Shown: positions 12,939-63,930 of the stretch, piece after piece
How positions within the stretch are numbered: position 1 is the stretch's first letter
Layout of the letters: every line of letters starts with the position of its first letter
Assembly (NCBI GenBank): GCA_026394055.1
Contig: JAPKYZ010000089.1
Span: 1-64,000 of the forward strand
DNA length: 64,000 nucleotides
Direction of reading: 5' to 3'
Source: Acidobacteriota bacterium
GTDB taxonomy: Bacteria > Acidobacteriota > Terriglobia > Bryobacterales > Bryobacteraceae
The notes under the pieces: generated by a model
Database searches by the model: none
Told to the model about the DNA's origin: nothing
The model's input: only the letters and a program-made list of their open reading frames with translations
Translations under genes and position numbers: made by a program

Positions 12939-13688
12939 CTACTCCACGATCTTCGGCACCAGCACCGCGAACATCGTCTCATTGCCATCGAGGTTCGCTT
13001 TCCCCACCACGGCCTTCTGCCCTTCGCGCACGTCGATGTCGGTATTGAAGCCGATCTCAGCATATTGATACTGCGCCCCCGTTCCGCCCGGACTGCCTTG
13101 GCCCGGGGCGGACCGGTAGGGCACCCGGAGTCCCACCCGCAAGCCGTCAATGCGAATGTTCTTGCCCTTGTCATCGGGAATGATCCGCGCCGACTTGATC
13201 TTGCTCTGGTAGAACATCTGCTGCCCGTCGACCCCGCGCGTCGGCGCAATCGCGCTCACTTCCGCCGGCCGGGAATCTCGGGCCCGAAGCACCAGCGTGT
13301 CAAACAATCGGTAGCCTTTCAGCGCAAAGGTGGCCGTCATCTGCTTCATCACGGACTCCAGCGCCGCCGGTACCGGCCCGGACTTGGCCGGGTCAGGCGA
13401 CGCGATCAGCAGGTAGATGGTGAACTCAATGTTCTCGGCCGGCTTGTAGACGTCATACCTCCGGATCGTCTCTTCAATCGTCTTGAGTCCGGCGGCCGAA
13501 TTGGCGCAAACCGAGATCGTGTGCATCTCCTGGTTGAAGTTAATCCCGCAGTTGGGGAACACCATCAGAAGGGCCGTAATTGTGCCCGGTTCGCCATACT
13601 TCAGGTCGAAGATCGCCTGAGTACGCCCGTCCTGAGCCAGCCCCGGCAGCGCCAGCGCCGCCATCATCAGCCATGCCTTGAGTCTCAT
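12939..13688 (-). CDS. Secreted secretin-N-like protein, sigma-coupled
   Basis: 249 residues with a signal peptide (about 1-19, ending LPGLAQ). Residues about 28-82 (YGEPGTITALLMVF, NFNQEMHTISVCA, GLKTIEETIRRYDVY) follow the pattern of secretin N0/N1 ring domains, in which a strand pair precedes a helix ending in a Lys/Arg-rich LD. The rest is beta-rich with no secretin pore domain, so it cannot be a full secretin. Its ATG overlaps the stop of the membrane-tethered sigma factor gene by 4 bp. Role unknown; envelope partner or output of that sigma factor is inference. Confidence 0.68.
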   Translation of the reverse strand: MRLKAWLMMAALALPGLAQDGRTQAIFDLKYGEPGTITALLMVFPNCGINFNQEMHTISVCANSAAGLKTIEETIRRYDVYKPAENIEFTIYLLIASPDPAKSGPVPAALESVMKQMTATFALKGYRLFDTLVLRARDSRPAEVSAIAPTRGVDGQQMFYQSKIKSARIIPDDKGKNIRIDGLRVGLRVPYRSAPGQGSPGGTGAQYQYAEIGFNTDIDVREGQKAVVGKANLDGNETMFAVLVPKIVE

Positions 13689-14443
13689 TGATTCTCATCT
13701 CCCTTTACGTCCATCGTCCAATAGATCACTACGTCCGGATCGTCCGTCACGATCTTCACCACCGCCGTCTGCGTCACCGCTGACGGTCCAACTCTCACCG
13801 GCCGCCGAGCCAGGACCACGGGGTGGGCGGCCACGAGTGACGCCGGTGGCAGCTGGGCCACCAACGGAACCGGAGCCGCAATCTCCGCCCGCCGCAAGCC
13901 TGATATCCACGTCAAGGCGCCCACGCCCACCGCCATCGCCGCCGCCAGGGCCGCCGCCACCAGCCGCTTCAGCCGGACCCGGCCGGTCGACAGGTTTGAC
14001 CGGACCGTACCCGCGCTCACGCCCAACCGCTGGGCGATCTCCGGGGCGGCCAGGCCATCCAGGTAGTGCAAGTGGATGGCCTGCTGCTCCCGGGACGGCA
14101 GTTTCGCCAGTGCCTCGTGCAAGATCCGCCGCTGCTGTTCGAACCCCGCCGCCGCTTCCGGATCGAGCCCCTGATCGGGCGGCTCCGGCGCGTCTTCCGG
14201 CCAGGGCACCACGAAGCGCCCGCGGCGCCGCCGGTCGTGGCAGAGATTCACCGTCACCCGGTACAGCCACGGACGCAGCTTTTCGGGGTCCAACTCAGCC
14301 GCTTGGTGCGCCCGGAGAAACGCATCCTGCGCCACGTCCTGCGCATCTTCCCAGCGCCCGAGAAGCCGGAAGGCGGTCCGCAGGACCAATCGCACCAGTT
14401 CCGGGTTGTCCAGCTCCGTTTCGGGTCTGCTCACCGCGTTCAC
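13685..14443 (-). CDS. ECF sigma factor with C-terminal membrane anchor
   Basis: 252 residues. Sigma region 2 lies at about 15-75 (WEDAQDVAQDAFLRAH, LRPWLYRVTVNLCHDRRRR). Region 4 lies at about 108-160 (LPSREQQAIHLHYLDGL, APEIAQRLGVSAGTVRS). Directly after region 4, residues 161-183 form a hydrophobic helix, followed by some 70 residues predicted to be periplasmic and ending VVIYWTMDVKGDENQ. Usual ECF factors are soluble and end after region 4, so this looks like a sigma factor fused to an anti-sigma-like anchor. It overlaps the downstream secretin-N-like gene by 4 bp. Confidence 0.87.
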   Translation of the reverse strand: MNAVSRPETELDNPELVRLVLRTAFRLLGRWEDAQDVAQDAFLRAHQAAELDPEKLRPWLYRVTVNLCHDRRRRGRFVVPWPEDAPEPPDQGLDPEAAAGFEQQRRILHEALAKLPSREQQAIHLHYLDGLAAPEIAQRLGVSAGTVRSNLSTGRVRLKRLVAAALAAAMAVGVGALTWISGLRRAEIAAPVPLVAQLPPASLVAAHPVVLARRPVRVGPSAVTQTAVVKIVTDDPDVVIYWTMDVKGDENQ

Positions 14444-14488
14444 TCACTAGACAGAACGCTGGAGGCCCCACAGGTGTTGAGTCCGGAC

Positions 14489-14600: not shown

Positions 14601-14939
14601 ATGTTTTGCACTGCTTGCGGCACACAACTGAAAGATAACGACCGCTTTTGTTCTTCCTGCGGCCAGGCGACGGCGCCTGGTACAGGCCCGGTCTCGGCCG
14701 GCTGGTATGCTCCCCCGCCCCCATCCGGCGCGGCCAAACGGCTGATGCGCACCATGAACGATAAGAAGATTGCCGGCGTCTGCGGAGGCGTCGCGCAGTT
14801 TTTTGGGGTGGATTCGACACTGATCCGCTTTGTCTGGCTGGTCTCGTTCCTGGCTTGGGGTGTGGGCTTCCTGGCTTACATCGTCGCCTGGATCGTGATG
14901 CCGCGCGACATTGATGTGGCGCGCGTAGTGTCGGCGTAG
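14601..14939 (+). CDS. Zinc-ribbon PspC-domain membrane protein
   Basis: 112 residues. An N-terminal zinc ribbon (FCTACGTQLKDNDRFCSSCG, two CxxC pairs) is joined by a Pro-rich linker to a PspC domain at about 47-105 (RTMNDKKIAGVCGGVAQFFG, DSTLIRFVWLVSFL, IVAWIVMP). PspC proteins are small inner-membrane proteins of envelope-stress responses. The gene is followed by a clear terminator and lies divergent from the tethered sigma factor, with a candidate ECF promoter between them. Confidence 0.9.
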   Translation: MFCTACGTQLKDNDRFCSSCGQATAPGTGPVSAGWYAPPPPSGAAKRLMRTMNDKKIAGVCGGVAQFFGVDSTLIRFVWLVSFLAWGVGFLAYIVAWIVMPRDIDVARVVSA

Positions 14940-19716: not shown

Positions 19717-20595
19717 TTGCGTCCCCGGCGCCTGTGGCTGCATGCCGCGCTCTTTTTGCTGACCTTGGTCACCTGCTCGGCCACCGGCTCACGGCTGGTG
19801 GACAATTTTCAGCACAACTTGCCCTCGTTCCGGCTGGAGCACGATTTGCTGCTGATGTTGTGGCCGGTGGACAATCCGGCCAGCCTGCTGACGGGCCTAC
19901 CCTTCTCCCTGGCCCTGTTGTTTATCCTGATGGCCCATGAAATGGGGCACTATCTGGCCTGCATGCACTACCGGCTGGACGCCAGCTTGCCCTACTTTCT
20001 GCCCGCGCCCAGCTTTATCGGCACCTTTGGGGCCTTCATCCGGATCCGCTCCATCATCTATTCGCGGAAGGTCCTGTTCGACGTGGGCGTGGCGGGCCCC
20101 ATCGCGGGCTTTTGCGCCTTGCTGCCGTTGTTGCTGGTGGGGGTCAGCATGTCGAAGCATCTGCCCGGCATCGCTCACCAAGGCGACATCCTGTTCGGCA
20201 CGCCCGTCCTGATCACGCTGGTGGAGCGCTTCTTCTTCCCTGGAGTTCCCTCGGCCGACATCTACTTGCATCCGCTCGCCCGCGCCGCCTGGGTGGGGCT
20301 ATTCGCCACAGCGCTAAATCTGCTGCCCATCGGCCAGCTGGACGGTGGGCACATTCTCTACGCGCTGTTTGGCGAACGGCACAAGACCATCTCCAAGTTC
20401 ACGCTGGCGGCGCTGGTGCCGTTGGGATTTCTCTACTGGCCCTGGTGGGTGTGGGCGGTGGCGCTGTTCTTCGTCGGCCGCAAACATCCCTTCATCTACG
20501 ACGCCACGCCCATTGGAGCGACGCGCGTGGCGCTGTCGATCCTGGCCCTGGTCCTGTTCTTGCTGAGCTTTATGCCGGCGCCGATTTCAGCGTAG
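19717..20595 (+). CDS. Site-2 protease family (M50) membrane metalloprotease
   Basis: 292 residues from TTG at 19717. Several transmembrane helices. The zinc site HExxH is in the helix LFILMAHEMGHYLACMHY (H74, E75, H78), and the third ligand motif is NLLPIGQLDGGHILYALF (NxxPxxxLDGG). These proteins cleave within the membrane, often to release regulators. No PDZ domain is seen, so it belongs to the compact group. Substrate unknown. The start is a best guess: no ATG fits between the HU stop and the first helix. Confidence 0.87.
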   Translation: MRPRRLWLHAALFLLTLVTCSATGSRLVDNFQHNLPSFRLEHDLLLMLWPVDNPASLLTGLPFSLALLFILMAHEMGHYLACMHYRLDASLPYFLPAPSFIGTFGAFIRIRSIIYSRKVLFDVGVAGPIAGFCALLPLLLVGVSMSKHLPGIAHQGDILFGTPVLITLVERFFFPGVPSADIYLHPLARAAWVGLFATALNLLPIGQLDGGHILYALFGERHKTISKFTLAALVPLGFLYWPWWVWAVALFFVGRKHPFIYDATPIGATRVALSILALVLFLLSFMPAPISA

Positions 20596-63337: not shown

Positions 63338-63930
63338 ACTGACCTTTTCTCCACCAAGGGGTATTGGTCCGCAAAGCGTGACCGGAGCCGCTCCACCAGG
63401 ATCTGCCGGCCGCGATTCAAGCGGGACCGGACCGTGCCAACGGGGCACTTCAAAATACGCGCTGCTTCGGTGTAGCTCATCTCTTCCATGTCGCACAACA
63501 ACACCGCTTCACGGTAGACCTGCGGCAGTTGGCCGATGGCCACCCGCACCGCCTCTTCCCGCTCCGCCTGCGCCAGATCGTCCAGCACCGCCGGAGCCAC
63601 GGGGATCTCATCGCTCAACTCCAGCGCCGGAGCGCTCTCCCAGCCGCGGTGCACCAGGTTGCGGGCGATGCCGAACAGGTACGCCCGCTCGTCCGTCATG
63701 CCGGATTTCCCGAGCAGCGTCACTGATTTCCGCAGCAGCGTCACAAAGGCTTCCTGCACCACTTCCTCGGCCGTATGGGCGTTTCCGGTCATGTGATACA
63801 CGAATCGGTAGAGCCCGCGTTGATGCTGGCGGTAGAGCGCAATGAACGCTTGCTCGTCCCTCAAGTGAGTAGTCCGGCGAAGGGGGCAAATGGTTCCAGA
63901 ATATTTTTTGACCCGCGCGTCTGGTACCAA
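63334..63930 (-). CDS. ECF sigma factor (RpoE-like)
   Basis: Up to 198 residues (TTG 63930); a second in-frame TTG at 63864 would give 176, nearer the usual ECF size. Region 2: GLYRFVYHMTGNAHTAEEVV and FVTLLRKSV...RAYLFGIARNLVHR; region 4: LPQVYREAVLLCDMEEMSYT and EAARILKCPVGTVRSRLNRG. The ATGA overlap to the anti-sigma-like gene makes a two-gene module. GGAACC at 63892-63897 on the minus strand may be an ECF-type -35 for autoregulation. Confidence 0.9.
   Translation of the reverse strand: MVPDARVKKYSGTICPLRRTTHLRDEQAFIALYRQHQRGLYRFVYHMTGNAHTAEEVVQEAFVTLLRKSVTLLGKSGMTDERAYLFGIARNLVHRGWESAPALELSDEIPVAPAVLDDLAQAEREEAVRVAIGQLPQVYREAVLLCDMEEMSYTEAARILKCPVGTVRSRLNRGRQILVERLRSRFADQYPLVEKRSV

Follow-up and report, generated by a model that had tools for sequence, protein, structure and literature searches.

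An ECF sigma factor joined in one chain to the membrane helix and outer half of its putative anti-sigma factor in Acidobacteriota

The open frame at 13685-14443 (minus strand) of the window, the whole 64,000-nucleotide stretch of DNA that was analyzed, reads from a GTG start into a protein of 252 aa, P0001, in which an ECF sigma factor, a membrane helix and a periplasmic tail follow one another in a single chain. As judged from alignment with its unfused relatives, P0001 is a sigma factor fused to the membrane helix and the outer half of its anti-sigma factor, with the inhibitory domain lost. The function that we infer, with a probability of about 45%, would be that of a one-chain tethered sigma factor derived from a three-gene operon, kept off by its tether, with pairing between its tail and the secretin-like product of the next gene (P0002), proteolytic release and autoregulation.

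Sigma region 2 of P0001 covers residues 17-76 (14216-14395, minus strand, as for all features of this operon; Pfam Sigma70_r2 PF04542, E 1.4e-15) and sigma region 4 covers residues 106-158 (13970-14128; Sigma70_r4_2 PF08281, E 2.9e-15). Both are intact, there is no sigma3, and TIGR02937 is matched at E 5.4e-28, the arrangement that defines an ECF factor. The membrane helix starts two residues past the end of the sigma4 match and spans residues 161-183 (13895-13963), as placed by hydropathy and by its position relative to linker and motif in the relatives. Residues 161-182 (LVAAALAAAMAVGVGALTWISG) are hydrophobic, with a best 19-mer hydropathy of 2.03 (2.24 in the sister species), and the basic residues RVRLKR stand on the sigma side. 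The tail of 69 aa (residues 184-252) ends in VVKIVTDDPDVVIYWTMDVKGDENQ and has no FecR or STN domain of its own; it is made of a Pro-rich periplasmic linker (residues 184-226; 13766-13894) and a conserved C-terminal motif, VVKIVTDDPDVVIYWTMD (residues 228-245; 13709-13762), defined by the family alignment. The stop codon shares an ATGA (13685-13688) with the start of the next gene, whose product begins with the signal-peptide-like MRLKAWLMMAALALPGLAQ. The sequence-only reading of 12939-14443 had described a helix at 161-183 directly after region 4, a tail of roughly 70 residues and a signal-peptide protein starting within the sigma stop codon. This description is correct, and its view that sensor tail, tether and sigma share one chain, coupled to a protein of the secretin-N family, is supported, while other parts of its interpretation fare less well, as shown below.

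The origin of the tail is seen in the relatives. We read the DNA upstream of P0002 homologues in a census of 237 genomes of the same family. At 97 unfused loci the sigma factor is separate and soluble and ends within 20 residues of sigma4, which led us to reject an ancestral one-chain ECF type. A recognized separate middle gene lies between sigma and the P0002 homologue in 91 of these 97 loci, mostly overlapping the sigma stop by four bases (ATGA), and its product runs from a cytoplasmic part through a single membrane helix and a linker, Pro-rich in most cases, to a C-terminal motif. A CxxC zinc-finger-like pattern occurs in 45 of the 91 middle proteins, and the two that were tested match zf-HC2 (E 1.8e-9 and 4.5e-7). 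By its position, zf-HC2 and topology, the middle protein is a putative anti-sigma factor. The other 46 (loci L160, L165 and L171, for example) are without the zinc finger and have a cytoplasmic part of only about 30-50 residues, and an RVRARV-type helix is frequent in these short stubs. The C-terminal motif, of TDDPDVVIYW type, has the consensus K/R-[LIM]-x-T-x-D-P-[DN]-V-V-I-[YL]-[WL]; its proline is invariant in 93/93 aligned family sequences, and the surrounding T, D, V, V and I are near-invariant. In the alignment P0001 carries the helix-linker-motif unit of the middle protein without the cytoplasmic inhibitor part, and the match between the window tail and the middle protein is limited to the C-terminus of the latter (residues 141-187). 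Retention of this unit with the inhibitor part missing makes the gene a sigma/anti-sigma fusion. Two apparent cases in the census were discarded as fusions: L103, in which the sigma is frameshifted and the anti-sigma has a start of its own, and L140, an out-of-frame deletion.

An equal fusion is present in the congener G061 (JAPKYX010000216.1, a MAG labelled LacPavin), with 74% identity over residues 1-252, the same junction and frame, and indels that come in multiples of three. The sequence-only reading would have been refuted, by its own account, by homologues that end before the helix. Most of them do (the 97 unfused loci), but the sister-species copy keeps helix and tail. The one-chain architecture that it asked to be sought across Acidobacteria was found in the sister species, but almost all relatives use three genes; the P0001 fusion is lineage-specific and no general ECF type. 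In a tree of P0002 the two fused copies group together as a single clade that sits within unfused relatives, most of them with the zinc finger, although nearby branches have weak support. The sister copy also bears on an assembly artefact or annotation error. The source assembly has 107 contigs and 91% completeness, and junction deletions in two other assemblies of the family (G133 and G111, below) could be artefacts; on the other side, the full-length fusion recurs with equal junction and frame in this independent MAG at 74% identity. A start/stop or assembly error after region 4, the refutation foreseen by the earlier reading, is accordingly ruled out as an explanation of the fusion, and the probability that we leave to an artefact is close to negligible.

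Comparison of the window with G061 indicates which parts are maintained. Over the whole fused gene dS is 0.55 and dN 0.18. For membrane segment plus tail the values are 0.775 and 0.256 (dN/dS about 0.33), with differences at 37 of 77 synonymous versus 42 of 193 nonsynonymous sites (Fisher p 2.5e-5): helix and tail are under purifying selection. The linker is fast-evolving yet constrained (dN/dS about 0.31). The motif shows dS 0.286, dN 0.068 and dN/dS 0.24, the selection test on these 26 codons alone being not significant (p 0.06). P0002 gives dS 0.74, dN 0.11 and dN/dS 0.14.

The sigma/anti-sigma boundary is also altered in three other genomes. G133 (L097, C541), compared with its near-identical congener G132 (L171, C85), is missing 89 bases, which creates an in-frame fusion; the deletion sits between GC-rich CGCGC repeats at the boundary. 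This separate fusion, in another genus, lies at a contig end and is therefore a probable one. The difference between the two genomes may reflect a recent fusion or a contig-end artefact. In G111 (L140, C7) a deletion at the boundary is out of frame. In G062, the third congener (L069, C9:68000-75000), a deletion connects sigma codon about 133, in frame, with the final codons of P0002; it has removed sigma4, the helix, the tail and most of P0002, and has kept the promoter. These deletions suggest that the boundary is deletion-prone, or that the assemblies share a weakness there, and the secure fusion is the window/G061 one only. Since deletion has reduced the G062 operon to sigma codons 1-133, the operon is dispensable in the genus. 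This raises an alternative in which the fusion marks a stage in the loss of regulation, with sigma constitutively released and then degraded or active, and with the operon decaying in the genus. The single in-frame G062 deletion, the G133 and G111 deletions at the same boundary and the absence of the P0002 family from half of the genomes of the family all speak for it. We consider it doubtful, given the dN/dS values for membrane segment plus tail, motif and P0002 reported above, a promoter conserved in all three congeners, and a fusion kept since the split of two species that now share 74% protein identity.

The partner P0002 (12939-13688) is an exported small secretin-like protein of 249 aa ending IDVREGQKAVVGKA..., assigned through its homologues and through matches to Secretin_N and GspD. 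A Secretin_N-like domain occupies about residues 23-88 (13425-13622), where the family profile aligns to GspD N domains. Near the other end a D-x-D-V-[RK]-E-G-Q-K-x-V-x-G segment (12996-13040) is the equivalent of the secretin TSVMVQDGQMLVLGG strand in the alignment with GspD 475-538, and the columns E222, G223, Q224 and G229 are invariant in the family alignment. Secretin_N (PF03958) is matched by 21 of 24 aligned P0002 homologues (best E 2.7e-9), and the best PDB matches of the family profile are GspD chains of the T2SS (E 9e-10), covering the N domains and the strand ending VxDGQxxVxG. P0002 alone has no match in Pfam, its Secretin_N membership resting on the alignment. The ring-building N-domain that had been proposed from sequence is thereby recovered at the level of the family, but not in P0002 by itself. 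The Secretin domain (PF00263) has no match in any of the 24 aligned homologues, and P0002 is about 80 residues shorter than GspD between the N domains and the VxDGQxxVxG strand. We therefore rejected P0002 as a full secretin; it is probably without a gated outer-membrane channel, and we read it as a small, secretin-like protein of the periplasm that perhaps forms rings through its N domain. In a Foldseek search with the P0002 model the top 27 matches are all secretins, but with TM-scores of about 0.2; the two structure models of this work, built from two-sequence alignments, are of low confidence (pLDDT 48 and 51). P0002 homologues are present in 28 of 61 sampled genomes of the same family and, by profile, in 117 of 237, across 42 of 76 genera. 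Relatives extend to other families of the order and of the phylum. Of the 19 phylum-sample loci that were read, 15 have a sigma gene upstream; the 19 include one same-family copy that the census had also counted.

A predicted autoregulatory promoter of ECF type, TCAACA-N16-CGTTCT with GTCT after it (14449-14480), immediately precedes the sigma gene. The window sequence, TCAACACCTGTGGGGCCTCCAGCGTTCT, is aligned and conserved in three congeners, and the family consensus is TCAACG-N16-CGTAT. A TCAAC-CGT pair is found upstream of sigma in 56 of 97 loci, at a spacing of 17 nt in all 56 although ten spacings were allowed, and the TCAAC/CGTA pair is observed at 39 loci versus 0.6 expected after shuffling. 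In each of the three congeners the genome has a single extended form, at this locus in every case. A search for a wider regulon with the strict TCAACG-N16-CGTATA in 121 genomes gave, outside sigma operons, about the rate of the backwards control. The only supported target of the motif is predicted to be the sigma operon itself. As the -10 element of the window ends about 9 bases before the GTG, the sigma message may be nearly leaderless. Family promoters (97 loci, L028, L031 and L171 among them) often stand only shortly before the start codon, and near-leaderless messages are possible there. On the other strand a divergent gene (14601-14939, plus strand) encodes a product that by eye is zinc-ribbon plus PspC-like, with a start region conserved across the three congeners. 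Close to the right end of the window (63394-63813, minus strand) is another ECF sigma gene, a distant one.

How the fused protein might work can be considered in the light of two studied systems. Pseudomonas putida IutY combines sigma2, sigma4, a helix and a periplasmic part in one chain (PMC5411451). IutY truncates are active only upon RseP cleavage, except when the helix is absent: all those that keep the membrane segment fully require RseP, including ones stripped of most of the anti-sigma part. RseP needs no signal to cut truncates in which 50 or fewer periplasmic residues are left (PMC5411451). In the FoxR/FoxA system, the C-terminal domain of the anti-sigma factor joins a periplasmic STN (secretin/TonB N) domain in a common beta sheet, and this binding guards it against proteolysis (PMC11637429). 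These precedents, and the co-encoding of a Secretin_N protein with the conserved, strand-like C-terminus of the anti-sigma factor, lead us to favor a tether that keeps sigma off and a tail that is shielded. The three-gene operon lost the sigma-binding cytoplasmic domain of the putative anti-sigma factor, which left sigma4 in frame with the helix and tail of the latter. The membrane tether would hold sigma off, its sigma4 recognition helix running straight into the membrane, and the periplasmic TDDPDVVIYW tail would pair with the Secretin_N protein P0002, a contact that we infer from co-conservation only. P0002 would either shield the tail from a site-1 protease or present the tail to it, shielding being favored. 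If P0002 is missing, wrongly assembled or drawn to another site, the tail would be trimmed, and a site-2 protease of the RseP/M50 type would then cut the helix and free sigma. Freed sigma would transcribe its own operon from TCAACR-N16-CGTWY, giving more sigma and more secretin-like protein, with the net effect of a homeostat for the latter. Alternatively, the short tail could mean constitutive release, given that the shortest IutY truncates (periplasmic part of 50 residues or less) do without the signal.

Proteolytic release is plausible, with IutY as a close precedent; in fusions of the IutY kind it is carried out by Prc and RseP. The earlier reading had tentatively placed the releasing protease in the window itself. 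An M50 match does exist there (19903-20409, plus strand; 62 bits), but nothing ties it to the operon, and an RseP-like M50 protease on another contig of the source genome (C67, 219 bits) is the stronger candidate.

A two-sequence AlphaFold model of P0001 presents a single helix from 144 to 176 (pLDDT 83-90 at 141-160 and 70 at 161-170); the model is poor outside the helix region, and the helix is confident only to about residue 170. In this model the recognition helix of sigma4 continues without a break as the membrane helix, which would place it on the membrane and suits an off state. The same feature weighs against a fused sigma that is active while membrane-bound, in the manner of ToxR or CadC, with tail and secretin-like protein modulating its conformation and no proteolysis involved: P0001 is predicted to have no flexible linker that would separate its -35 recognition helix from the membrane, and in this it is unlike ToxR-type proteins. 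Helix-keeping IutY variants, moreover, need RseP (PMC5411451). That the operon keeps no separate inhibitor, that the sigma domains are intact and that selection on the tail persists would all fit membrane-bound activity, which on balance we regard as unlikely. Control by a separate anti-sigma factor or partner encoded elsewhere, the tether again keeping sigma off and the tail being an anchor only, would draw on the other sigma loci of the genome and on several weak matches in the genus to the cytoplasmic part of the middle protein. We give it very little credence, as no candidate with the cognate motif was found elsewhere in the genome and conservation of the tail motif exceeds what an anchor needs. 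A search of the source genome for the missing middle protein found no complete copy at a meaningful E-value. Relocation of the anti-sigma domain to another place in the genome was rejected, there being no convincing candidate.

The tether-off, shielded-tail model can be taken further, to a point where we hold it as a speculative possibility. The tail motif, 20 residues and probably beta-forming, would be the whole sensor in place of an anti-sigma domain, reading the state of a mini-secretin ring in the periplasm, and release would occur by intramembrane proteolysis; the system would be a convergent, minimal acidobacterial counterpart of IutY/IutA, inside a phylum-wide sigma/anti-sigma/mini-secretin homeostat that is apparently undescribed.

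We found no description of an acidobacterial ECF/secretin operon in the literature that was searched. By that literature, what is new is the loss of the anti-sigma domain with a short periplasmic motif kept, along with the secretin-like partner and the operon of Acidobacteria with its promoter. Through loss of the inhibitory domain, the fusion has in nature turned a sigma/anti-sigma switch of two proteins into one made of a single protein, and with the unfused relatives as controls it can be tested directly whether a bare membrane tether is able to regulate a sigma factor. The fusion also brings to light an operon widespread in Acidobacteria, composed of sigma, an anti-sigma factor with a TDDPDVVIYW-type tail and a small secretin-like protein under its own promoter, that ties ECF signaling to secretin-type domains without a TonB-dependent receptor.

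Fused membrane-tethered ECF factors are already known, namely IutY/ECF243 and ECF48/52/53 (reviewed in PMC8999054) and SCO4117 (PMC5826349). P0001 shares with IutY, a cell-surface signaling protein of ECF243, the layout of cytosolic sigma2-sigma4, a single helix after sigma4 and a periplasmic regulatory part in one chain, together with a partner that has a secretin/TonB-type N domain (the signaling domain of IutA there, the Secretin_N of P0002 here). IutY has a large FecR-type periplasmic domain and a TonB-dependent receptor, in contrast to the 69-residue tail with its TDDPDVVIYW motif and the small secretin-like partner; Pfam finds no FecR domain in P0001, and its neighbor is not a TonB-dependent receptor. 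We do not class P0001 as a member of ECF243, but by analogy it most likely works like IutY. Many unfused relatives of P0001 carry a zf-HC2-type anti-sigma factor, a further contrast with IutY, and the two fusions are probably of independent origin. The actinobacterial ECF48, ECF52 and ECF53 (SCO4117 is an example) likewise have the C-terminus of sigma fused to a membrane helix and to an extracytoplasmic part that in ECF52 is Pro-rich, and are thought to need proteolysis. In these factors a zinc-finger anti-sigma domain still separates sigma4 from the helix, whereas P0001 gives no Pfam match to zf-HC2, which sets it apart from these groups and from zf-HC2 anti-sigma factors. The unfused relatives resemble canonical ECF sigma/zf-HC2 pairs in having a sigma gene and, usually overlapped through ATGA, a membrane anti-sigma gene; they differ in the TDDPDVVIYW-type end of the anti-sigma factor and in the secretin-like gene that comes next. 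With the secretins GspD, PilQ and pIV the P0002 family shares Secretin_N and a D-G-Q-x-x-x-x-G strand, in a protein about 80 residues shorter than GspD and with no match to the Pfam Secretin domain.
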